Assembly: GCA_001784285.1 (NCBI GenBank)
Contig: MFQC01000008.1
Location: 168,896 to 216,747 of the forward strand
Length of the DNA stretch: 47,852 bases
Direction of reading: 5' to 3'
From: Candidatus Magasanikbacteria bacterium RIFCSPHIGHO2_02_FULL_48_18
GTDB lineage: Bacteria > Patescibacteriota > Patescibacteriia > Magasanikbacterales > UBA922
Shown here: piece after piece, positions 3 to 15,398 of the stretch
How the letters are laid out: each line of letters begins with the position of its first letter
How positions within the stretch are numbered: the first letter of the stretch is position 1
Position numbers and translations under genes: made by a program
The notes under the pieces: model-generated
What the model saw: only the letters and a program-made list of their open reading frames with translations
Databases searched by the model: none
Told to the model about the DNA's origin: nothing

Positions 3-641
3 GCCCAGCTCGCGGCCGTCGCGGAGATCGAGCGCGAGCTCGGCCTCCCGATGGAGGGGCTGTTCGGGGTTACGGCCGAACAGCGCCGGCGGAACGTCCG
101 GATGCTCGTCGAGATCCGTGGGATCTACGAGCGTCTGGCGCGGCGGTATGCCGTCCGCCAGGGCTGGGACGACACGTGTGGACTCGCTGAGTTCGTCAGC
201 GAGGTCGGGATGGAGTTCCTTCGTCCCGATCGTCCACCGGTCGTCTCGCGGAAGGTGCCCGCCGTCGTCCGCGGCGGGCAGGAGGGCCGAGTGGTGGAGG
301 CGCACCCGTGCGCCGGCGGGGTGGTCGAGCTGTTCGCCTATGAGCAGCCCGGCTACCGGGCGCTGTTCTTCTGGCTCATCTGGAGGCCTGCCTCCGCTGA
401 CCAGGAGACGGCACATGCCCGTCAGCCGTCCGCGGCTCCGTCCCAGGAGCCCACGGCGGCGGTCGAGTCCGCACAGCCCTCGGTGGCGTTCGTCCACCAG
501 GGCAAGCGGGACTTCCGCTCGTCGTGCCACGGGGCCTACCCGCAGGTGACCAAGGGGCAAGCGGCCGATTTCCAGGCCGGCAAGCCTCTTCGGCTCACCT
601 GCCCGACCTGTGGCAAGTCGGGCACGGCCACCAAGAGCTAG
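3..641 (+). CDS. Hypothetical GC-rich protein, open at left window edge; C-terminal Zn-ribbon-like domain
   Basis: Frame open from base 3; C-term FVHQGKRDFRSSCHGAYPQVTKGQAADFQAGKPLRLTCPTCGKSG shares a pattern with the 2378-4801 product. Confidence 0.7.
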   Translation, partial: AQLAAVAEIERELGLPMEGLFGVTAEQRRRNVRMLVEIRGIYERLARRYAVRQGWDDTCGLAEFVSEVGMEFLRPDRPPVVSRKVPAVVRGGQEGRVVEAHPCAGGVVELFAYEQPGYRALFFWLIWRPASADQETAHARQPSAAPSQEPTAAVESAQPSVAFVHQGKRDFRSSCHGAYPQVTKGQAADFQAGKPLRLTCPTCGKSGTATKS

Positions 642-2215: not shown

Positions 2216-2377
2216 TTTATTCTCGAAATGTCCTTTTCAATCAAAAAGCAATGCGCTCCTTTGATTATTTTTATAAAAAATACTTTCTTGGAGCGCATTG
2301 TAAATTTGCCCAACAGTGTTGAGTCCTCACCGGGTGGTGAGAATTTGACATGGGCACGCCACGACCAGGAGGTCATC

Positions 2378-4801
2378 ATGGCGACGCAGAACACGCAGAA
2401 GGGGATTGAGACGACGGCGACCACCAGCACGCTGGTGGTCTGGAGCCGGCAGGGCGCCGAGCTCCGGGCAACGATCGTGGCCGACCCGCGTGGTCGGTGC
2501 AAGATCGTGTTCCTTGCAGGCTACCGGCCCGAGACGGCCGGAGCCTACCGCGGCGAGCTCCCGGCCGACGGGGAGCTTTGGGTCGTGGACGTCGTCCGCG
2601 ACACCAACGAGACGAATGCCCACAAGGGGGCACTCATCGTCCGCCTGGTTCGCCAGGCACGGTGGGAGCTCTGCTCCCTGGGCGAAGAGGTCTTCGGGGT
2701 GCGACGGTTCGCCCCCGTCTGCCTCGACGGGGAGGCATCGGACGTCTACTGCTCCTCGATTTCGCGCGAGGAGATCAAGACGGCCAACGCGCCGTTCCGG
2801 GCGGCCGAGGAGAAGCGGATGCTGTGGCAAATTGGGCCACAGAATCCGGCCTTTTTCCCGACGTTCGGGCGACCCGACGAGACGAGGGTGGACGACCGAG
2901 GCATCGTGACCTTGGTCTACCCACATGGCGAGAGGATGACGCAGACTTCCTCGCTCTCGCGCGAGTACGCGATCGAGCCTGCGGGCTGGTCGTGGGATGA
3001 GACGAAGGGTGAGGTCATCCTCGAGCAGAGCTTCCCGGAGATCCCGGGTGCTGTGCTGCGCGAGACGGTCGCCAATTTGAGTGGCGTCCGTCACGGCTGG
3101 GAGCTCGTGCCCGAGGGGATGAAGGCCGAGATCGTCGCCTTCATGACGCCACGGATGCCGAGCCCGGAGGAGGTCGGCAGGCAGGCAGGGGCTGAGCGCG
3201 TTGGGTGGGTTGCGAAGTCGCTCGACAAGCTCATCACGCTTGTTGATGTGCTCCGCCACCCCTGCGAGAAGGGGCTGGTCACCGAGCGCTACGAGACGAC
3301 CTCGTACTCGGTTCCCGTCAGCTATGGGGATGAGACGTGGTACGAGACCTCTTCCCGGGGGGTCAGGACGGCATGCTACTCCACGCACGTCGTCCTCCTC
3401 GACGACGGGGTTCAGGTAGGCCGTCTTGAGGGGTCGGTCACGACCGGGGAGACGCCTGAGGCAGCGGTGCGTCGGATGATGGCGAAGGAGAAGGAGGACA
3501 TCAAGAGTTCTCTTCGCCCTGCTTCCGACTGGCGCCGCGTCCCGGTGCCGTTCCTCGGGGAGCTCACCGAGGCCGAGTGGAGCCGTCGGGTCTTCGCGGC
3601 ATTCCGAGCCGCCCGGAAGGAGGCGATGTCGGCGTGGGGTGAGCGCCTCACGGCGTGCCTCCGAAGCACGCAGGAGGTCTGGGCTGAGTACCGCACGCTC
3701 AAGCCCGAGCTCCTCCAGGCGTGTAACCGTCGCTGGCTGTCCACCCCCACACCGGAGACCATGCCCGAGCTCCGGAAGATGGTGGCCGACCATCGGGAGT
3801 ACGGCCGGGTCGCCGCCGAGGCCGAGGCGCTCCGGAAGGCCATTCGCGCGGTCGAGAATTGGTCGGAGTACGGCGACTTCTCTCGGAGCCTCGCTCAGGA
3901 GTTCTCCGAGTGGAGTTCGTCGTGCGGCGATCACCGGATCCCCACCGACCTCGAGGTTATCCGCCAGTGGATGCCCGAGGCTCAGGCGGTCTTGGCGCGA
4001 GCCGAGACAGCGCGGGACGAGATTCGGCAGCGACGCGACGAGGCTCGTCGTCGCTTCGCCGAGATCACGTCGGCCACGGGAGCGACGGTCGGCCACTTCG
4101 CCCTGCCCGAGTCGGGTTGGGGCGATCACGATGCTTCGCTCGCGGGTCGGATCCGTGGGTTGAAGATCGTCGTCCCGGAGGGCATGGCGAGTGCGACCAC
4201 GCTGCCGGGCGTCGACCGGGTCGAGGCTAAGACCCTCATCCCGGGCGACAAGGCCTTGGTGCTTTACTCCTTTGGGGGTGGCACCAGGCGATACGGGGCT
4301 CGGGACCACATTCAGAGTGGTCTCACCCAGATCGTTTCGGTCGGCGGCAGTCGACGTGAACCAGTCGTGGTTCTCGCAATCGTCGAGACACCGGACTGGC
4401 ACGTGGCGTGGCAGAACACCCACGACGGCGAGGTGACGAATTTCGTCTTCGCCGATCGGCGTGGGATTCACACGCTGTACCTCGACGGGGACGACGTCTG
4501 TACCGAGGCGTGGGAAGGCGTGGAGCCGACCTCGCCGTCGGTAGCAGAGATGCGCGCGTTCTTCGGCCTCGGTAGTGGTACGCTTCGTGCCACCACCGCG
4601 TCGGAGACAGTGCAGTCTGTGCCGTCGACCGTCCCGGAGATCAAGACGGTGACCTTCGCCCACGATAGCAAGCGGGACTTCCGCTGCTCATGTGGGGTCT
4701 TCAACCGGATGACCTCCGGTGACTTCGCCCGCTACAACTCCGGCGAGACTATTGCACTCACGTGCATGGTTTGTGACGGGGTTGGGGAGGTCAAGAAGTA
4801 G
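2378..4801 (+). CDS. Large orphan hypothetical protein with C-terminal Zn-ribbon-like domain
   Basis: RBS ccAGGAGGtcatcATG; GC-rich codons; C-term FAHDSKRDFRCSCGVFNRMTSGDFARYNSGETIALTCMVCDGVG matches the tail of CDS 3-641. Confidence 0.8.
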   Translation: MATQNTQKGIETTATTSTLVVWSRQGAELRATIVADPRGRCKIVFLAGYRPETAGAYRGELPADGELWVVDVVRDTNETNAHKGALIVRLVRQARWELCSLGEEVFGVRRFAPVCLDGEASDVYCSSISREEIKTANAPFRAAEEKRMLWQIGPQNPAFFPTFGRPDETRVDDRGIVTLVYPHGERMTQTSSLSREYAIEPAGWSWDETKGEVILEQSFPEIPGAVLRETVANLSGVRHGWELVPEGMKAEIVAFMTPRMPSPEEVGRQAGAERVGWVAKSLDKLITLVDVLRHPCEKGLVTERYETTSYSVPVSYGDETWYETSSRGVRTACYSTHVVLLDDGVQVGRLEGSVTTGETPEAAVRRMMAKEKEDIKSSLRPASDWRRVPVPFLGELTEAEWSRRVFAAFRAARKEAMSAWGERLTACLRSTQEVWAEYRTLKPELLQACNRRWLSTPTPETMPELRKMVADHREYGRVAAEAEALRKAIRAVENWSEYGDFSRSLAQEFSEWSSSCGDHRIPTDLEVIRQWMPEAQAVLARAETARDEIRQRRDEARRRFAEITSATGATVGHFALPESGWGDHDASLAGRIRGLKIVVPEGMASATTLPGVDRVEAKTLIPGDKALVLYSFGGGTRRYGARDHIQSGLTQIVSVGGSRREPVVVLAIVETPDWHVAWQNTHDGEVTNFVFADRRGIHTLYLDGDDVCTEAWEGVEPTSPSVAEMRAFFGLGSGTLRATTASETVQSVPSTVPEIKTVTFAHDSKRDFRCSCGVFNRMTSGDFARYNSGETIALTCMVCDGVGEVKK

Positions 4802-5064: not shown

Positions 5065-6207
5065 TTATGCAATACCAAGAAAATGGTCGCGCGCTGTCGC
5101 ATCGTCGCTTGCAATACACGAGAATGATGCATGCGGGTAAAGCGTGGTAAATTCTTTTGGAGCTATGGCAAAACGGCCGACGCTCTGTTTGAATTCAAAT
5201 GCGGTAACCTTGCCGTTCTTTTCGCAGACAAGATCAACTTCTTGTTGGCTATAGCTCCGCCAAAAATACATATTGCTTGGCTGTGCTTCGTTTTGTTCAC
5301 GCTTCATTCGATCAGCAATCATCGCATTTTCAAACAGCGCGCCGCTGTCGGTGCGAAGCGTGAGTGGATTGAAATTGCCAATGATGGCATTGCGCACGCC
5401 ACAGTCGAAGAAATATATTTTCACTTTGCGTGAAAGTTCATTTCTGGCGTTTTTAGTGAAAGCGCGTAGTCGAAATATAATGAATGATTGTTCGAGAAGT
5501 CTGATATATCGTTCAACAGTTTTATATGACAGGCCAATTTTCCTTCCGAGTTCGTTGTACGATACTTCGCTTCCGAGCTGGAGTGCGAGCGCCGCAAGGA
5601 GATGCCTGAGCGGTTCGCTGTCTTTCACCCGGTCAAATGCGACAATATCTTTGTACAGATAATTGTCGGCTATAAATCGAATGCGCTCAATCTTGTCTTC
5701 ATGTCCTATGATTGTGGCGATTTCCGGATAGCTTCCATAGATGAGGAGTTCGTGAAGTCGTGTGGTGCGGTTCACGACCATTTCGGATTGGACGAGTTCC
5801 TTGAAAAGAAGAGGAGAAAGGAAAAAGGCAAAATGCCGTCCTGTAAGCGGTTCTGAGAGGGTGTTTCGAAGTTCAAATGCGGCAGAACCGGTCGCAATAA
5901 TCTGAGTATCTTTGAGGTGATCTGTAGCGATTTTGAGGATGCGTCCAATCTCGTGCACCTGATGGGCCTCATCAAGAACCACGAGACGCACATTCCCAAA
6001 AAGTCGCTGGAGCGCGAGCGAGTCCGGAATGAGCGCATCTCGGACACGGGCTTCATCGCAAGAAAGAAAAAGCATGTCTTTTTCATGTTCAAACATCTGT
6101 TGGAGCATGGTAGTCTTTCCTACCTGTCGGGCACCATAAATAATAAGAATTTTGCCTTTATGGAGATATTTTTTTAGGATCTCTTCAAGATTTCTTTTTA
6201 CATACAT
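5065..6207 (-). CDS. AAA ATPase, DUF4143 (AAA_14) family
   Basis: MYVKRNLEEILKKYLHKGKILIIYGARQVGKTTMLQQMF; Walker B LVVLDEAHQV; FWRSYSQQEVDLVCEKNGKVTAFEFK. Upstream ORF extension rejected. Confidence 0.87.
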   Translation of the reverse strand: MYVKRNLEEILKKYLHKGKILIIYGARQVGKTTMLQQMFEHEKDMLFLSCDEARVRDALIPDSLALQRLFGNVRLVVLDEAHQVHEIGRILKIATDHLKDTQIIATGSAAFELRNTLSEPLTGRHFAFFLSPLLFKELVQSEMVVNRTTRLHELLIYGSYPEIATIIGHEDKIERIRFIADNYLYKDIVAFDRVKDSEPLRHLLAALALQLGSEVSYNELGRKIGLSYKTVERYIRLLEQSFIIFRLRAFTKNARNELSRKVKIYFFDCGVRNAIIGNFNPLTLRTDSGALFENAMIADRMKREQNEAQPSNMYFWRSYSQQEVDLVCEKNGKVTAFEFKQSVGRFAIAPKEFTTLYPHASFSCIASDDATARDHFLGIA

Positions 6208-6357
6208 AATCAAAAATAGTTTAAAAAATAGAATACATATACTAATTTTAGTACAAAAAATAGAAGTTGTCAAATTGTCATGTGCGCCGTATGGGTTTAT
6301 TCCCTTAAATATTTCATAGGCAAAATTAAGGATGGAATATTTGAGGGAGTGATATCC

Positions 6358-6380
6358 CCGGTTGTCCCAACCGGCGAGCG
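6358..6380 (+). repeat. Fragment resembling hairpin 2 of the structured repeat
   Basis: ccggttgtcccaaccggcgagcg versus ccggttgttggattaccaaccggcgagcg in copies A/C (shortened loop). Confidence 0.45.
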
Positions 6381-6465
6381 TGTGCTCGAAAGAGGGAACA
6401 AAGTCTGTCCCGGTCACGATCGGGAGCCGCTGTTGCCATGGCGGTTGCCTCAAAAGGAGGAAATC

Positions 6466-7035
6466 ATGGCGAACCACACGATGACGAAGGCAGAGTTGGT
6501 GGGGATTCTTCTGGCCGGAGGGATCAATGTATCCCTTTATGGCCTGGGGAAGGCCAAGACACTGGACCACCTCCTCAGGGAGGTGGAGAGCGGAGAAGCC
6601 GAACTCCGCAAAGACGAAAACGGCAGGCTGACCCGCGTGACGCGGGTCGCCAAGGGCGAGGTCCTTTACCGGACGCCGGCCGGAGGACTCCGTCTCTGTG
6701 AGGACCGGCAGGTCTTCACAGATTGCCGCGAGCGCCGGCGCTGGGCCGATCTTGCCCCCAACGCCGTGAGCGAGAAGCTTGCGGTGGGCGAGGACGCGGC
6801 CGGGGGCATCCGGCGCGCGCTCCTGGAAGAGCTCGGCATCGACCCCATGCTCGCGGCCATCGAGCCGAAGGGCATGCGGGTCGAGACCGTCGTGAGCCCG
6901 AGCTACCCGGGGCTCTTGACGGTCTATGAGCTCTACGACCACCGCGTAGAGCTCACGGCGGAGGCCTACCGCCCGGAGGGTTACGTGGAAGTCCAGGAGG
7001 ACAAGTCCACGTATTTCCTCTGGGAGGAGGTGTAG
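6466..7035 (+). CDS. NUDIX-like hypothetical protein
   Basis: RBS aaAGGAGGaaatcATG; GEDAAGGIRRALLEELGI resembles a NUDIX box, with the RE pair replaced by RA. Confidence 0.6.
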   Translation: MANHTMTKAELVGILLAGGINVSLYGLGKAKTLDHLLREVESGEAELRKDENGRLTRVTRVAKGEVLYRTPAGGLRLCEDRQVFTDCRERRRWADLAPNAVSEKLAVGEDAAGGIRRALLEELGIDPMLAAIEPKGMRVETVVSPSYPGLLTVYELYDHRVELTAEAYRPEGYVEVQEDKSTYFLWEEV

Positions 7036-8236: not shown

Positions 8237-9808
8237 CTACAGATCATTTCCCGAGTACGACAAATTGAAACTTTTGTTAATAAGAGGAAAATCAGGGACC
8301 ACATTGTCAAATCCCGCATCTCCGAGCGCGGGCCAATTGAGAAACGATGGATCGCGCGGAGCGACTCTCTTGATACGTCCATTTGAATCTGTCGCGATAA
8401 AATACACAATATCTCCTCGCCAGCCCTCGACGATACCGACTGCAATGGCATTTTTTTTGAATATAATATCTTTGTCTGATGCCATGATATTTCCTTCCGG
8501 CAGTTTGTCGAGCGCATCGTGTATGGCCTTGACTGAGGCGTGCACTTCCTCAATACGAATACGAAATCGGGCATACACATCACCGCCATGTTCGATTGGA
8601 ATGTTGCCGATAGAAATTTCGTTGTAGGCCGAGTACGGATAGTCAATACGCGCGTCATGTTGTATTCCGACAGCCTTTCCCGCAACTCCGACGACGCCGC
8701 GATCTTTGGCAATTTGAGCGGAAAGAACACCCGTGCCTTTGAGACGGTTTGACAACGATGCGCTATTTTCAGCAATACCTATGACTTCTGAAAAATCCTT
8801 CAGTATCTTTGAGAGATCAATGAATAGTATCTCTTTTTCTTCATGGTTGATATCCCGAGTTATCCCGCCCACCGTATTCACTCCCCGCAAAAATCTGCTT
8901 CCGGTAAGCCTCTCATGTATGCGCATCACCATTTCTCGCAGGCGCGCCCCATGCGCACCCCCAAAATTAAACCCCGTATCAAGCATGATCGCCCCAATGT
9001 CTCCAAAATGATTGGCTAACCGTTCCAATTCAGCATAGATAAGGCGAAGGTATTCCGCGCGTTTTGGCGCAGTGTTTCCGCTGAGTCGTTCGAGCGCTTG
9101 GCAGAAAGCCAGCGAATGACTAAAGGAACTATCACCAGAAATTTTTTCTGACAGACGGATTTTATCATCAAGAGAAAGCGTCTCAAATAATTTTTCGCTT
9201 CCTTTGTGCGTAAATCCGAGCCGCGGTTCCAACAGCACGATGCTTTCTCCGGCAACGCTAAACCGAAAATGTCCCGGCTCGATAATGCCGGCGTGAATCG
9301 GGCCTACAGGAATTTCATATATTCCTTCACCCTCCACCTTTTGAAATGCGTACGTTCCCCTCGACTCTTTTGGTCTTGTGTCCCAGGCAAAATTTTTTCT
9401 GAGCGGGAAAATATCAGTCGGCCAATTTTCATGAAGAAGGATTGGTTTTGGGTCCGGATGCCCGACCGGTGTCAGGCCGAAAAACGTTTGTATGACTCGT
9501 TCATAATTCCACGCTTCGTGGATGCGCGGGGTGAGCGAAGGAAATTCCGTTGTCTTTTGTAATCGAATATATGGGACAATAAACGCATTTTCCTTGGGCA
9601 CGCCAAAAATATACCACATGTTGAAACACTCGTTTTCTCCGTTTTCATCTGTCGCAGTTATGAGCTTGAGTGGGAGATGGTTGTTGTTGTATAAACCAGA
9701 GACGACTTCTTCTATGCGGGAAGCGGAAACCTCAACCATGGCGACGTTATCGCAAAATTTTATGTTTTTTTCCTTTGGGAGGTGCTGTTGTACGTTTTGT
9801 TGGTTCAT
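8237..9808 (-). CDS. HycE/HyfG/NuoCD-like large subunit lacking NiFe ligands (Ehr-type)
   Basis: EPRLGFTHKGSEKLFE, ERLANHFGDIGAI, NKSFNLSYSGNDL; L1 motif is EKISGDSSF and L2 is NLSYSG (no Cys). Confidence 0.88.
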   Translation of the reverse strand: MNQQNVQQHLPKEKNIKFCDNVAMVEVSASRIEEVVSGLYNNNHLPLKLITATDENGENECFNMWYIFGVPKENAFIVPYIRLQKTTEFPSLTPRIHEAWNYERVIQTFFGLTPVGHPDPKPILLHENWPTDIFPLRKNFAWDTRPKESRGTYAFQKVEGEGIYEIPVGPIHAGIIEPGHFRFSVAGESIVLLEPRLGFTHKGSEKLFETLSLDDKIRLSEKISGDSSFSHSLAFCQALERLSGNTAPKRAEYLRLIYAELERLANHFGDIGAIMLDTGFNFGGAHGARLREMVMRIHERLTGSRFLRGVNTVGGITRDINHEEKEILFIDLSKILKDFSEVIGIAENSASLSNRLKGTGVLSAQIAKDRGVVGVAGKAVGIQHDARIDYPYSAYNEISIGNIPIEHGGDVYARFRIRIEEVHASVKAIHDALDKLPEGNIMASDKDIIFKKNAIAVGIVEGWRGDIVYFIATDSNGRIKRVAPRDPSFLNWPALGDAGFDNVVPDFPLINKSFNLSYSGNDL

Positions 9809-9809
9809 A

Positions 9810-11252
9810 TTAAAAGGGTACGGCCGCATTATGAAGTAATATCTGTAAAAATTGCGGCTGGTAGAAACCGATACACAGCGCCAAGACAAAAAGAACAAGG
9901 GGCGGAAGAATAAGCCATGTGTCTTCCTTTTTTTGTTGCATTTCAGGCGGTTTGTCTCCGAAGACCATACTCGTGGCATGTTTAAAGAGCCCGATGAATA
10001 CCAGAGTCGTCAAAAGAACGGCTATGACCGTAACGGCGGGATGCGTAAGTATCCCGGCAGAAAAAGTAAACAATTTTGTCAAAAAAATTCCAAATGGCGG
10101 AGCGCCAGTGATAATAAAAATTCCTGCAAAAAACAGGACGCTCGTTATTGGCAAAACGCGGAGGACGCCTTTGACATTGGCGATTTTTGTTGAGCCATAT
10201 GTGAGAAATATATTTCCTGCAGTCAAAAAAAGAGCGGACTTGACGAGCGCGTGGTAGAGCATATGGAGAATGGCCGCAAAAATTCCCAAACCGCCGAAGC
10301 CGAAGCCGAGTGCGGTGATTCCCATATTTTCGATACTTGAATAGGCAAGCAGGCGTTTATAATTTTTTTGCGTCAACATGATCAACGCGGAAACAAGAAT
10401 CGAAAGGAGACCAAAGGCGATAAATAATTTCTGTGAAAAATCGGACCCAATCGCCGCATCAGTGATTACTTTAAATCGCAGTACCACAAGAAGCGCGACA
10501 TTGAGAAGCACCCCTGACAATAATGCGCTAATCGGCGCCGGGGCCTTGCTGTGCGCATCCGGAAGCCATGTATGCATCGGCGCGAATCCAACTTTCGTGC
10601 CATACCCAATCAAGATGAAGATAAACGCAATTTGAACAATCATGGGGTCAAGACGCGCGGCGTGTGAAAGCAGGTCATGCCATGTCGCAAGACCGGCTCC
10701 GCTCTCTATTTTTGACGCGGTAAAATACAAGAGCGTCCCAAAAAATCCCAAGAGCAGTCCTATGGAATTGATGATCAGATATTTCCACGCCGCCTCCATT
10801 GCCGACGGCTTGTTGTAAAAACTGATGAGGAAGGCGGTGGAAAGTGTCGTGGCTTCAATGGAAATCCACGCAAAAATGGGGTTGCTCGTTGATACCGCAA
10901 GAAGCATCGCGGACAAAAAAAGGTTCAATAAGATAAAATACTGTTTGACACGAGTGAACCCAATAATCTTTTTTGCAGTCTCTTTTCTCAGATATTGGAT
11001 GGAGTAGGCGACCGCGGCGCACCCAACGCAGGAGATAATAAGCATGACGAGAGCCCCCAGGGCATCAATGATAAAAAATCGTGATGGGGCGTAGTCTCCC
11101 GATGAAGCAACTTTGAGAGCGACGGTAATTGACGCGATGCACACAAAAAGCGCGGCGCTTATCGATGCGCACTCAATGACGCTTCGACGTTTCGCAATCA
11201 TTGCAATCAACGCCGCGACAGGGAACAGGGAAATGACAATGATGAATTCCAT
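9810..11252 (-). CDS. HyfF/NuoN-like proton-translocating antiporter subunit
   Basis: WISIEATTLSTAFLI, GYGTKVGFAPMHTWLPDAHSKAPAPISALLSG, LYHALVKSALFLTAGN. Confidence 0.92.
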   Translation of the reverse strand: MEFIIVISLFPVAALIAMIAKRRSVIECASISAALFVCIASITVALKVASSGDYAPSRFFIIDALGALVMLIISCVGCAAVAYSIQYLRKETAKKIIGFTRVKQYFILLNLFLSAMLLAVSTSNPIFAWISIEATTLSTAFLISFYNKPSAMEAAWKYLIINSIGLLLGFFGTLLYFTASKIESGAGLATWHDLLSHAARLDPMIVQIAFIFILIGYGTKVGFAPMHTWLPDAHSKAPAPISALLSGVLLNVALLVVLRFKVITDAAIGSDFSQKLFIAFGLLSILVSALIMLTQKNYKRLLAYSSIENMGITALGFGFGGLGIFAAILHMLYHALVKSALFLTAGNIFLTYGSTKIANVKGVLRVLPITSVLFFAGIFIITGAPPFGIFLTKLFTFSAGILTHPAVTVIAVLLTTLVFIGLFKHATSMVFGDKPPEMQQKKEDTWLILPPLVLFVLALCIGFYQPQFLQILLHNAAVPF

Positions 11253-11256
11253 AGCG

Positions 11257-11904
11257 CTAATCTTTTAAATGTCTCATTAAGCTGGTATCGAGGGACTGAA
11301 ATTGTCTGTAAATCATCGATAGAAAAACCGCGGCAATGATGATCCACACAAAAATATCAAATATAATGCCAATCTGGAGTATTGGCGATTGTTCGAGACC
11401 TGCAAAGATGGCAAAAACAACGATGCCATTTTCAAAAGAAAGAATGCCAAGCGCTTGGGATACGGCCTCTTTGCGGTTGATAATCAAAAAAAGAGAAATA
11501 AAAATCGCTGAAAGCGCAAGGGACAACAAGGCGTGGTGTGCGGGGACGATAGTGGTAAGCGGTAAAAATTTTTGGGAATGAGCCAGGGCGGTCAACACGG
11601 CGAGGACAATAAGCGTGAGCGGCGTGCTCAGATAGGTGCTTGTCAAAAACGTCAACTCGTGTTTTTGGATCAATGTGATAAAAAATATGGGCGCAAGAAT
11701 GACTTTGATGGCGAAGGCGACAAAAATCACGAGAAGCAGGGATACGTTTTTGGTTTCAAAGAAGAAGCCAAATAATATCAGCACCGTCGCAAACGATTGA
11801 ATTCCGTAGGCAATGACGGCGCCAAAATTTTTTCGTATGAGATGCAAAAAAATGATGGTTAAAAACACCACTCCCAATAAAAATTGCAAGGAGAGAATGT
11901 TCAT
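11257..11904 (-). CDS. HyfE-like (NuoK-type) membrane subunit
   Basis: Hydrophobic; position in operon; LSFENGIVVFAIFAG resembles HyfE. Confidence 0.82.
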   Translation of the reverse strand: MNILSLQFLLGVVFLTIIFLHLIRKNFGAVIAYGIQSFATVLILFGFFFETKNVSLLLVIFVAFAIKVILAPIFFITLIQKHELTFLTSTYLSTPLTLIVLAVLTALAHSQKFLPLTTIVPAHHALLSLALSAIFISLFLIINRKEAVSQALGILSFENGIVVFAIFAGLEQSPILQIGIIFDIFVWIIIAAVFLSMIYRQFQSLDTSLMRHLKD

Positions 11905-12833
11905 AGTGTTTGGCTAAGACCAATGGCGACAGCGCTCAAAATAAAGGAGATGATGAGCAGATCGGGGAGGCGGAAAAATCGTAATTTCGCCATACTCGAT
12001 TCAATGAGTGCAACAATACAACAGATGCCGAGTATTTTTATGAGGAGTGCGGCGACTCCGATAAACAGCGCGCCCATGCTCGCGCTTTGAGCAATGCCAT
12101 AGGGGAAAAAGAGGTTGACTCCCAACGCGGCAAAAATAAAAAATTTATTCGCTGCCGCCCACTCTATCAGCGCCAATTTTTTGCCCGAATATTCCAAAAT
12201 CATAGCTTCGTGTATCATCGTCAATTCCAAATGTGTCGCGGGATTATCAAAAGGGAAACGTCCGGTTTCGGCCAGCAAAATAATAAAAAAACCGATGAAT
12301 GCCAGCATGGCAGGCAGGAAAAAACTGGTTGAAAGCAGGATGCCAGCGCGAGAAATGGTAAAAAGATTTGTTGTGCCGATAATCACTGAAACCGCAAAAA
12401 AGGAAAGGATAAGGCCACCTTCTGCCAATGCGGAAATGGTCGCTTCTCGGCTGGAACCAAATCCGCCAAATGCGCTTCCGGTGTCCATGCCTGCAAGAGC
12501 CAAGAAAAACGTGCCAAGAGCGAATGTATATGCCACGACCAGGAGGTCGCCAGTGAGCGCGTTCTTTAAGAAAGAAGCAAAAAGCGGAATGCTCAACCCC
12601 ACAATAATGGTAGTCGTGAAAATAATATATGGCGCAGAGCGAAAAATCCATGATGCGTCAGGGCTTATCACTTCATCTTTATGCATAAGCTTCCAGATAT
12701 CTTTGTATGGTTGCACAATGCTTGCCCCTTGACGATTTTGGAATTTTGCTTTTATTTTTTTGATAATACCAATACACAGCGGGGACAGGGCGGGGGTCGC
12801 AATGAGTTGTATTATCCAGAAAAAAATCGTCAT
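11901..12833 (-). CDS. HycD/HyfC/NuoH-like membrane subunit
   Basis: NRQGASIVQPYKDIWKLMHKDEV; AETGRFPFDNPATHLELTMIHEAMILEYSG. Confidence 0.93.
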   Translation of the reverse strand: MTIFFWIIQLIATPALSPLCIGIIKKIKAKFQNRQGASIVQPYKDIWKLMHKDEVISPDASWIFRSAPYIIFTTTIIVGLSIPLFASFLKNALTGDLLVVAYTFALGTFFLALAGMDTGSAFGGFGSSREATISALAEGGLILSFFAVSVIIGTTNLFTISRAGILLSTSFFLPAMLAFIGFFIILLAETGRFPFDNPATHLELTMIHEAMILEYSGKKLALIEWAAANKFFIFAALGVNLFFPYGIAQSASMGALFIGVAALLIKILGICCIVALIESSMAKLRFFRLPDLLIISFILSAVAIGLSQTL

Positions 12834-12840
12834 ATCAGGA

Positions 12841-14880
12841 TTATGACAAAAATAGGGCTGTCACCACAGCAATGAAAATATACAGAACGTACATGTTGAT
12901 GTTGCCGCTTTGAATTGCCTTTATGCGCAACGACAACGCAGTAATGAATTGGATCAGTGGCACATAAAAATATGATTGGTAGACATCTCTCATCCGCAAG
13001 TTCACTATTCTGGATTTTGGCACATATCTTGTATGAGCATCGTGGTATTGTATTTCATGCTGAAGACTTGGCTTTAAAATACCGGAAAAAATACACACGA
13101 TTGATCGCGCAAACCCGGTCGCGGTAATTTCCGTGCGCGGAGTGAGATTAGCGCCGCAGTCCCATGTCGCGCCGATGTTTATTTTTTGTTTTTTGTTGAC
13201 AATATATTTGGCCGCCGCAATAACACACAGCAGTATGAACACGAAAAGGATAAAAAATACCGGGCCTGACACAGAGCCGAAACCATTTGGCGCCAAGAGA
13301 GCGCTCGCGGCCGATGGAGCGGTATTTGCAGAAGCAAGAAATGAAGAGGCTCCTGTGCGCGCCAGGAGCGGCGCCAGGTACCCTGAAAATATTCCAAACA
13401 AAAGACACACCGTTGCTAGCGCCCCCATCCCTGCTCTCAGCGGCCAGGACGATTCTCGTGCGCGAGGAACATCACTATTTCTTGGGCGGGCAAGAAACGT
13501 GACGCCAAATGCTTTGACAAAACAGGCCAATGCAAGCCCCCCGGTCAACGCAAGCGCACCGGTCGCCAATACAAAAATTGATTTTACAACAATTTCCGCA
13601 GACAGTATCCCTTGTAACAACACCTGGAACGTCATCCATTCGCTAAAAAATCCGTTGAATGGCGGCAAGGCGGATATTGCCATAGAGCCAATAAGAAAGA
13701 AAAATGCTGTGAGAGGCATATATTTGATCAGGCCGCCATATTCTTCCATGTTTCGCGTATGCGTTTGGTTAATAATCGAGCCGGCGCTTAAAAATAACAG
13801 GGATTTAAAGACAGCATGATTGACGGTGTGGAAAAGGGCGGCTCCCAGGCCAAAGAGCGCAAGAGGCGTGTTGCCAACCGACGCAAAGACCATGGCACTG
13901 CCAAGACCGAGGAGTATTATTCCAATATTTTCAATGCTGTGGTATGCCAAAAGTTTTTTGATATCGTGTTCCGTAAGCGCGTATAAAACCCCAAGTAAAG
14001 CGGATACTGATCCGATAATAAGCACGGTCAGCCCCCACCAGAGCGGCGCCGGCTCAAGGATGTCCATAAACATTCGTATCATCATGTAGATGCCCGTTTT
14101 TATCATAACGCCGGACATGAGGGCAGACACATGGGATGGGGCGGCAGGATGGGCGGCAGGGAGCCAAATATGAAAGGGAATGATGCCGGCTTTGGCGCCA
14201 AAACCAATGAGTGAGAGCACAAAAATGGCATTTTTTACAGACACAGGAATGAGTGCCACACTCGACGTTATCGCCGCAAAGTCGAATGAGCCGGTATATG
14301 CATATAAGAGGAGAAGGGAAAGAATAATACAGCTCGTGCCGGCGTACGTCATAATCAGGTAGAGTGAGCCGGCTTTGACCGTGTCATTGTCGTTATGGTC
14401 ATAGACAACAAGGAAATACGACGCGATAGCCATGATTTCCCACGCCACGAGGAAGAAGAGCCCGTTCGAAGCCGTTACAACCATGAGCATGCCCGCAATA
14501 AATAAGTGATAAAAAAATCCCAAGGCGCCAATGTTGTATTTTTTATAAAAATGTTTGATATACCCAATGCCATATATGGAACAAAAGAGGGTGATGAGCG
14601 AAATCACAAAAATGAAAAAGGCAGACAGTTTGTCAATATGAAATGAAAAAGAAAGAAGCGGGAAAACCGATGAAGTGGCGGCAAAAGATATGCCGCGCGT
14701 CACAAAAAATGCTCCGATTGAAAAAATGATGCCCCACAAAGAGCCGATAATCGCGAAAAAATTCTGCCACCCGTTGGCCAATGTGTCTCTCTTTTTGAAA
14801 CACAAAGACCCGGCCGCTCCCATCGCAAAAAGTGAGAGTAAAAAGACAAAGCCAATTTCGGATATCATGGCGTCTATCAT
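12841..14880 (-). CDS. HyfB/NuoL-like antiporter subunit
   Basis: LVAWEIMAIASYFLVV, GFGAKAGIIPFHIWLPAAHPAAPSHVSALMSGVMIKTGIY, LFHTVNHAVFKSLLFLSAGSI. Confidence 0.94.
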   Translation of the reverse strand: MIDAMISEIGFVFLLSLFAMGAAGSLCFKKRDTLANGWQNFFAIIGSLWGIIFSIGAFFVTRGISFAATSSVFPLLSFSFHIDKLSAFFIFVISLITLFCSIYGIGYIKHFYKKYNIGALGFFYHLFIAGMLMVVTASNGLFFLVAWEIMAIASYFLVVYDHNDNDTVKAGSLYLIMTYAGTSCIILSLLLLYAYTGSFDFAAITSSVALIPVSVKNAIFVLSLIGFGAKAGIIPFHIWLPAAHPAAPSHVSALMSGVMIKTGIYMMIRMFMDILEPAPLWWGLTVLIIGSVSALLGVLYALTEHDIKKLLAYHSIENIGIILLGLGSAMVFASVGNTPLALFGLGAALFHTVNHAVFKSLLFLSAGSIINQTHTRNMEEYGGLIKYMPLTAFFFLIGSMAISALPPFNGFFSEWMTFQVLLQGILSAEIVVKSIFVLATGALALTGGLALACFVKAFGVTFLARPRNSDVPRARESSWPLRAGMGALATVCLLFGIFSGYLAPLLARTGASSFLASANTAPSAASALLAPNGFGSVSGPVFFILFVFILLCVIAAAKYIVNKKQKINIGATWDCGANLTPRTEITATGFARSIVCIFSGILKPSLQHEIQYHDAHTRYVPKSRIVNLRMRDVYQSYFYVPLIQFITALSLRIKAIQSGNINMYVLYIFIAVVTALFLS

Positions 14881-15398
14881 ACGTGCATTTCAAGAATACG
14901 AAGAAGATGGGTGAGGATGGTCATGGGCGATGGCGGATCTCCCGGAATGCCATAATGCACGGGAACGACCGTATCGACCCCATCGAGCACCGCATAGGAC
15001 CCTCGGAATATGCCGCCGTGTATCGCGTCGTCCCCTACCGCGACAACAATTTTTGGATTTGGTGTTGCCTCGTATGCCCGGCGCAATGCCTCGGCCATAT
15101 TGCGGGTTACCGGGCCGGTAACCATGAGCATGTCAGCGTGTTTTGGCGAAGCGACAAAATGAATGCCAAAGCGTTCAACATCATAAAAAGCGTTTGAAAG
15201 AGCAACAAGCTCCTGTTCGCATGCATTGTCAGAACCGGCATCTACTTGCCGGATTGCAAGGGAACCCCCAAATAATCGTTTGACGTTGTCTTGTATTTTT
15301 TCGCCGAGAACAAACACTTCCGACTTCTTCTCCTCGGGAATAGGCAAAACGACTATATTTTTCGGTGTTTTTAATATTTTTAAAAAAAGTTTTGTCAT
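14877..15398 (-). CDS. HyfI/HycG/NuoB-like small subunit with Cys-to-Asp cluster ligands
   Basis: QVDAGSDNACEQE, FVASPKHADMLMVTGPVTRNMAEALRRAYEATPNPKIVVAVGDDAIHGGIFRGSY, GIPGDPPSP; ATGA overlap with next gene. Confidence 0.9.
   Translation of the reverse strand: MTKLFLKILKTPKNIVVLPIPEEKKSEVFVLGEKIQDNVKRLFGGSLAIRQVDAGSDNACEQELVALSNAFYDVERFGIHFVASPKHADMLMVTGPVTRNMAEALRRAYEATPNPKIVVAVGDDAIHGGIFRGSYAVLDGVDTVVPVHYGIPGDPPSPMTILTHLLRILEMHV

Follow-up and report, generated by a model that had tools for sequence, protein, structure and literature searches.

The window analysed here, 47,852 nucleotides of Candidatus Magasanikbacteria DNA, carries a gene for a NuoB/HyfI-like small subunit in which most of the cysteines expected to hold a [4Fe-4S] cluster read as aspartate, and the question is what a complex-I-type machine does once the usual ligands of that cluster are gone. 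In complex I, electron transfer at the terminal cluster is coupled to distant membrane ion pumping, and the coupling mechanism is still debated.

Operon structure and assignment of ligand positions

The gene, ehrS, is the first of six in a minus-strand operon with the order NuoB/HyfI-, HyfB-, NuoH/HyfC-, HyfE-, HyfF- and fused NuoCD/HyfG-like (ehrSABCDL; Table 1). The window comes from contig C8 of a Patescibacteria genome of 1.10 Mb, 99% complete. The ATG start of ehrS was picked by homologue alignment (MTKLFLKIL...), and ligand positions were assigned against MbhJ, HycG, human NDUFS7 and Ehr relatives carrying C-N-G-C, GDC and GCPP. In the minus-strand frame, EhrS reads ...AGSDNACEQEL...VAVGDDAIHGGIF...HYGIPGDPPSP..., with SDNAC, GDDA and GDPP as the ligand motifs. 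The alignment gives D-C-D-D, with the Cys at position 2 retained, and so upholds the sequence-only reading, which had proposed that three of the four cysteines were replaced by Asp; its codon coordinates were right for ligand 4 (14937-14939), and off by 1-2 bases for ligand 1 (15230-15232) and ligand 3 (15028-15030). Of the surrounding residues, G58, N61, E64, E66, G125, G156, P158 and P159 are unchanged across the tree. The DCDD set is not a product of chance, because each of the three TGY to GAY replacements takes two base changes while these neighbours stay the same. The Oxidored_q6 family has one member in the window genome, which is therefore without a second, Cys-bearing copy.

Table 1. 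The ehr genes and the ligand-related positions of the operon, in window coordinates.
Feature	Coordinates	Strand	Description
ehrS	14877..15398	-	NuoB/HyfI-like small subunit, [4Fe-4S] ligand positions D-C-D-D
EhrS ligand position 1	15228..15230	-	Asp, codon GAC
EhrS ligand position 2	15219..15221	-	retained Cys, codon TGC
EhrS ligand position 3	15027..15029	-	Asp, codon GAC
EhrS ligand position 4	14937..14939	-	Asp (GDPP), codon GAT
ehrA	12841..14880	-	HyfB/NuoL-like antiporter-type membrane subunit; TM Glu and Lys retained
ehrB	11901..12833	-	HyfC/NuoH-like membrane subunit; E-channel region acidic residues retained
ehrC	11257..11904	-	HyfE/NuoK-like membrane subunit
ehrD	9810..11252	-	HyfF/NuoN-like antiporter-type membrane subunit; TM Glu and Lys retained
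ehrL	8237..9808	-	fused NuoC-NuoD / HyfG-like large subunit without [NiFe] ligands
EhrL first [NiFe] motif, degenerate	9116..9145	-	KISGDSSFSH replaces RxCGxCxxxH
EhrL second [NiFe] motif, degenerate	8333..8356	-	RDPSFLNW replaces DPCxxC

No ferredoxin-like subunit is among the six gene products, and EhrL has KISGDSSFSH and RDPSFLNW where [NiFe] group 4 hydrogenases have RxCGxC and DPCxxC; the complex therefore bears the hallmarks of Ehr, a group of hydrogenase-like complexes that lack [NiFe] ligands and have no assigned function (PMC4378227, PMC10284858, PMC12342949). Ehr of Geobacter, Rhizobium, Nitrospira, Sulfobacillus and others have the same six subunit types, and likewise no ferredoxin-like subunit and no [NiFe] ligands, and rhizobial, azospirillar and burkholderial plasmid copies share 48-58% EhrS identity with the window complex. 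Since the small-subunit [4Fe-4S] ligands are missing, the complex is an Ehr variant rather than a typical member. Fold and subunits are common to complex I and the [NiFe] group 4 hydrogenases (Hyf, FHL, Mbh), whereas the ligands of the N2/proximal cluster, NiFe, NuoI/HyfH and the NADH module are absent from this complex. The soluble arm (S plus L) is thus without any predicted redox centre. That the partner large subunit also lacks metal ligands, and that the operon is tied to ATP synthase (see below), is context that the sequence-only reading had overlooked.

EhrL strongly conserves a GPxHAGxxEPGHF motif together with SGDSSFSH and RDPSFxNW, indicating constraint on what was once the quinone/[NiFe] pocket; no clear CPR-specific charge-compensating change was found in this subunit. 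EhrB keeps a NuoH-type acidic stretch (AETxRxPFDNPxTHLELTMIHEAMILEYSG), which, together with the transmembrane Glu and Lys of EhrA and EhrD, we take to be the ion path by comparison with complex I and Mrp. Most CPR loci with sufficient flank have the full set of six ehr genes in collinear order. In one operon (L041:8560-15829), ehrS shares 78% identity with its window counterpart and the other five ehr genes only 42-56%, giving a mosaic-like appearance, and in two Magasanikbacteria loci (L028:15655-17427 and L031:12519-14338) a CBS-domain-like protein and a polytopic permease, ArsB/NhaD-like by eye, lie 3' of ehrL.

Ligand states among relatives and origin of the loss

The set of EhrS sequences designated Cys-less comprises 65 CPR sequences, in which Cys never occurs at positions 1, 3 or 4, and position 2 is Cys in 44. 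Residue counts are D37/T23/S5 at position 1, C44/E16/A5 at position 2, D45/G16/E2/T1/A1 at position 3, and D57/N8 at position 4. Sequencing error as the source of DCDD is ruled out, because 24 of the 65 sequences share this identical set (window copy counted) and the rest carry related non-Cys sets. These genomes are MAGs, which may contain misplaced contigs; the pattern nonetheless recurs in many of them.

The frequency of each set depends on how relatives were sampled. A scan of close relatives seeded on peptides holding the motif returned mostly DCDD, whereas whole-genome searches of the phylum and of two classes, which used no motif seeds, yielded 35 complete sequences with TEGD (10), TCDD (9), DCDD (3), SEGD (3), DCDN (2), DCGD (2) and six singletons. 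The Asp triad was therefore dropped as a conserved signature, the seeded scan having favoured DCDD and the whole-genome samples being mostly TEGD and TCDD. In TEGD and SEGD, Cys is present at none of the four positions, and the same holds for DAxx/TADD. Glu or Ala takes the place of the retained Cys in 21/65 sequences, so the family can do without this Cys, as it can without the Asp triad.

In the EhrS tree, all 65 Cys-less sequences fall in one clade (support 100/96) with a single label change, inside CCCC-type Ehr, and their tree neighbours are from Cupriavidus and Paraburkholderia. CCCC is retained in Ehr copies of Rhizobium, Azospirillum, Methylovirgula and Cupriavidus; this state outside CPR rests on nine plasmid-borne proteobacterial copies, all of which keep the four small-subunit cysteines, unlike the CPR clade with none at positions 1, 3 and 4. 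In a small-subunit tree, EhrS nests with proteobacterial Ehr (95/89) and not with FHL, Mbh or NuoB. Since the Cys-less sequences form one clade inside CCCC-type Ehr, the simplest history is a single loss of the cluster in the ancestor of the CPR clade, with the positions then drifting within a limited residue set. The sequence-only reading had asked whether homologues with its Asp-containing set form a clade, and had regarded assorted residues at the ligand positions as a sign of simple relaxation. The Cys-less sequences are indeed monophyletic; DCDD is not the signature of their clade (3/35 in the unbiased sample), and the residues are largely assorted, being D/T/S, C/E/A, D/G/E/T/A and D/N at the four positions. 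A NuoB-like protein on a plasmid of Streptomyces sp. NBC_01483 (L059:8854-9381) has Arg at ligand position 1 (RCCC), and no other Ehr genes were found in that locus.

A related clade has been described from the large subunit: Jaffe et al. 2020 (PMC7304191) report a monophyletic group of CPR Ehr large subunits without metal-binding cysteines, considered unable to use H2. The Cys-less EhrS clade is almost certainly this CPR Ehr clade, which we therefore treat as known. The account of these large subunits in that paper mentions neither the small-subunit ligand loss nor the ATP synthase link, and searches of open-licence papers found neither.

Linkage to ATP synthase and redox inventory

In gene-neighbour clustering, ATP synthase genes were the commonest neighbours of ehr, with ABC transporter genes less often, and no co-conserved new peripheral subunit was present beside ehr. 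In 13 of 33 genomes drawn from the whole-genome searches, atpD precedes ehrS on the same strand at a distance of 0.8-5.3 kb, and in three more the two genes are within 20 kb of each other. Random placement would give about 0.1; the binomial P for the excess takes no account of relatedness, and several of the 13 are close kin. In four loci (L027, L041, L042 and L043), an almost complete atp operon leads directly into ehrS, and in another (L046:9091-18839) the six ehr genes interrupt the atp operon between atpG and atpD, the two gaps being 16 and 27 bases. The linkage is seen with DCDD, DCGD, DAEN, DCEN, DADD, TADD, TCDD, SEGD and TEGD versions of EhrS; the window genome has ehr on contig C8 and atp on contig C3, without linkage. 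The ATP synthase c-subunits are without the Gln/Ser ligands of the Na+ type, and by this motif they look proton-type. On the Methylovirgula plasmid pHY1 (L057:1-9426), a CCCC-type Ehr operon adjoins F-ATPase genes on the opposite strand.

The window genome has F-ATPase alpha and beta, and gave no match to Fer4_7, Fer4, NuoF or COX1 in searches that did match control genomes; relative to respiratory complex I, the N2 ligands in NuoB, NuoF and a Fer4-type protein are thus all lacking. Across the 33 genomes with Cys-less EhrS, F-ATPase was found in 33/33 and COX1 in 0/33, with no Fer4_7 match in 26/33 and a Fer4_7 protein in the other seven. One sequence (L064:9656-10402), a long-branch member of uncertain tree placement, is a divergent Cys-less EhrS (DADN) with an N-terminal fusion to a CxxCxxCxxxCP 4Fe-4S motif, and its genome has several Fer4_7 matches.

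Selection and fold

EhrS, EhrL and EhrA are under purifying selection, with dN/dS mostly about 0.07-0.15 and at most 0.17, except for EhrS of the closest pair at 0.27 on very few changes. A pseudogene is ruled out by the low dN/dS and by the six collinear genes in most CPR loci. The predicted fold of EhrS is confident (pLDDT 92.9), with an rmsd of 2.0 Å to MbhJ (6cfw_J) and a TM-score of about 0.7 to NuoB homologues.

The ligand positions change in 5-9 steps each on the tree, near the median column (6). Two or three acids are present among the four positions in 65/65 sequences, and column shuffling (2000 times) gave about 9 rows with fewer than two acids and never zero such rows; because this shuffling ignores relatedness, the result is only suggestive. 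It suggests a pocket constrained to stay acidic and polar, rather than to keep a fixed ligand set. The loss is neither pure relaxation nor pure repurposing: the view that it is not random decay agrees with the single clade, the purifying selection, the confident NuoB fold and the constant presence of two or three acids, and the proposed repurposing as an Asp3-Cys metal site is not borne out, the orthologues having no invariant ligand set.

Function of the CPR Ehr complex

The loss of redox ligands from a complex that selection has kept, and that is often clustered with ATP synthase, suggests ion movement without redox chemistry. The reading we prefer, with a probability of roughly 0.5, is a redox-silent six-subunit Ehr complex that serves as a complex-I-like ion translocator working alongside the F1Fo-ATPase, ion transport or antiport by CPR Ehr being suggested by homology and gene linkage. 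Such a complex would carry protons, and probably Na+ or K+ as well, with no electron transfer involved, and its partner would be the proton-type F1Fo-ATPase in cells without a detected heme-copper oxidase, so that, for example, an ATP-driven proton gradient could be exchanged for a cation gradient, or the reverse. Asp, Glu and Thr would fill the space left by the cubane where EhrS meets EhrL, at the junction to the NuoH-like subunit. This pocket, kept negatively charged and hydrated, may act as a gate for the complex or pass protons on to that subunit, or may simply stay hydrated and acidic. Against the redox-silent reading stand the separate contigs of ehr and atp in the window genome, the Fer4_7 proteins in 7/33 genomes and the 4Fe-4S fusion in L064. 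An analogue is found in the Mrp Na+/H+ antiporters, whose MrpA/D-like subunits with transmembrane Glu and Lys are matched by EhrA and EhrD, and whose redox-free ion exchange is the behaviour that CPR Ehr may share; however, no Mrp-type accessory subunits (MrpB/E/F/G) were seen among the six genes of the operon, and the NuoH-, NuoB- and NuoCD-like subunits are foreign to Mrp. Only tentatively do we go as far as a complex-I-superfamily machine without a redox centre that has the F1Fo-ATP synthase as its obligate partner, translocates ions by a driving force other than redox and uses the acidic pocket as a protonation switch.

Other explanations carry less weight. That the pocket has been repurposed, as a hard-metal site (Mg, Ca, Mn or Zn) or as a dedicated acidic proton relay, would fit the acids found in every member, with their swap between position 2 (Glu) and position 3 (Asp), the two base changes that each Cys to Asp replacement requires, and the Asp or Asn held at position 4 in 65/65; but no ligand set is fixed, the positions are about as variable as the median column, DCDD is rare in the unbiased sample, and the acid count was obtained with no control for relatedness, so that we consider this explanation doubtful. 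Its proton-relay half is compatible with the redox-silent translocator. Its hard-metal half, which takes only part of that modest weight because the orthologues share no ligand set, is unlikely, metal sites being normally invariant. Single Asp ligands to [4Fe-4S] clusters exist, and the window EhrS keeps one Cys, as a non-canonical Fe-S centre still bound through Asp and Cys would need; relatives with Cys at none of the four positions (TEGD, SEGD, DAxx/TADD) make such a centre extremely improbable. That the soluble arm is instead a vestige degenerating after the loss of redox function, with meaningless Asp residues, would agree with ligand positions evolving at about the median rate of the protein, but is very unlikely given the low dN/dS in three subunits, the six collinear genes, the invariant neighbours and the retained fold.

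The complex might also still be a redox enzyme, converting an organic substrate where quinone or [NiFe] was once bound, with no Fe-S relay and with its partner (a flavoprotein, NADH or another carrier) encoded elsewhere. The conserved EhrL segments imply constraint on that pocket, Ehr elsewhere keep their [4Fe-4S] ligands and presumably do redox chemistry, and a link between FDH and Ehr has been proposed in other bacteria (PMC6349859). However, no relay is left in S or L, no third peripheral subunit is encoded, and the window genome has neither NuoF nor a Fer4-type protein, which leaves a redox role unlikely.

If the redox-silent translocator is correct, CPR Ehr would be a natural experiment in which both arms of a complex-I-like machine are kept and the electron-transfer centres lost, leaving conformational or ion-driven coupling as the only basis for whatever the complex does. 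The use and retention of F1Fo-ATPase in Patescibacteria without a detected terminal oxidase would then also be easier to explain.

Other genes near the operon

Two plus-strand ORFs of the window (51-641 and 2228-4801) share a similar terminal zinc-ribbon-like module (KRDFRxSC ... C-x2-CGxxG / C-x2-CDGVG). On the minus strand, 968-2095 and 5065-6942 encode two related ATPase-like proteins near the ehr operon, with GPRQVGKTT and GARQVGKTT motifs, respectively (AAA/DUF4143 by eye).
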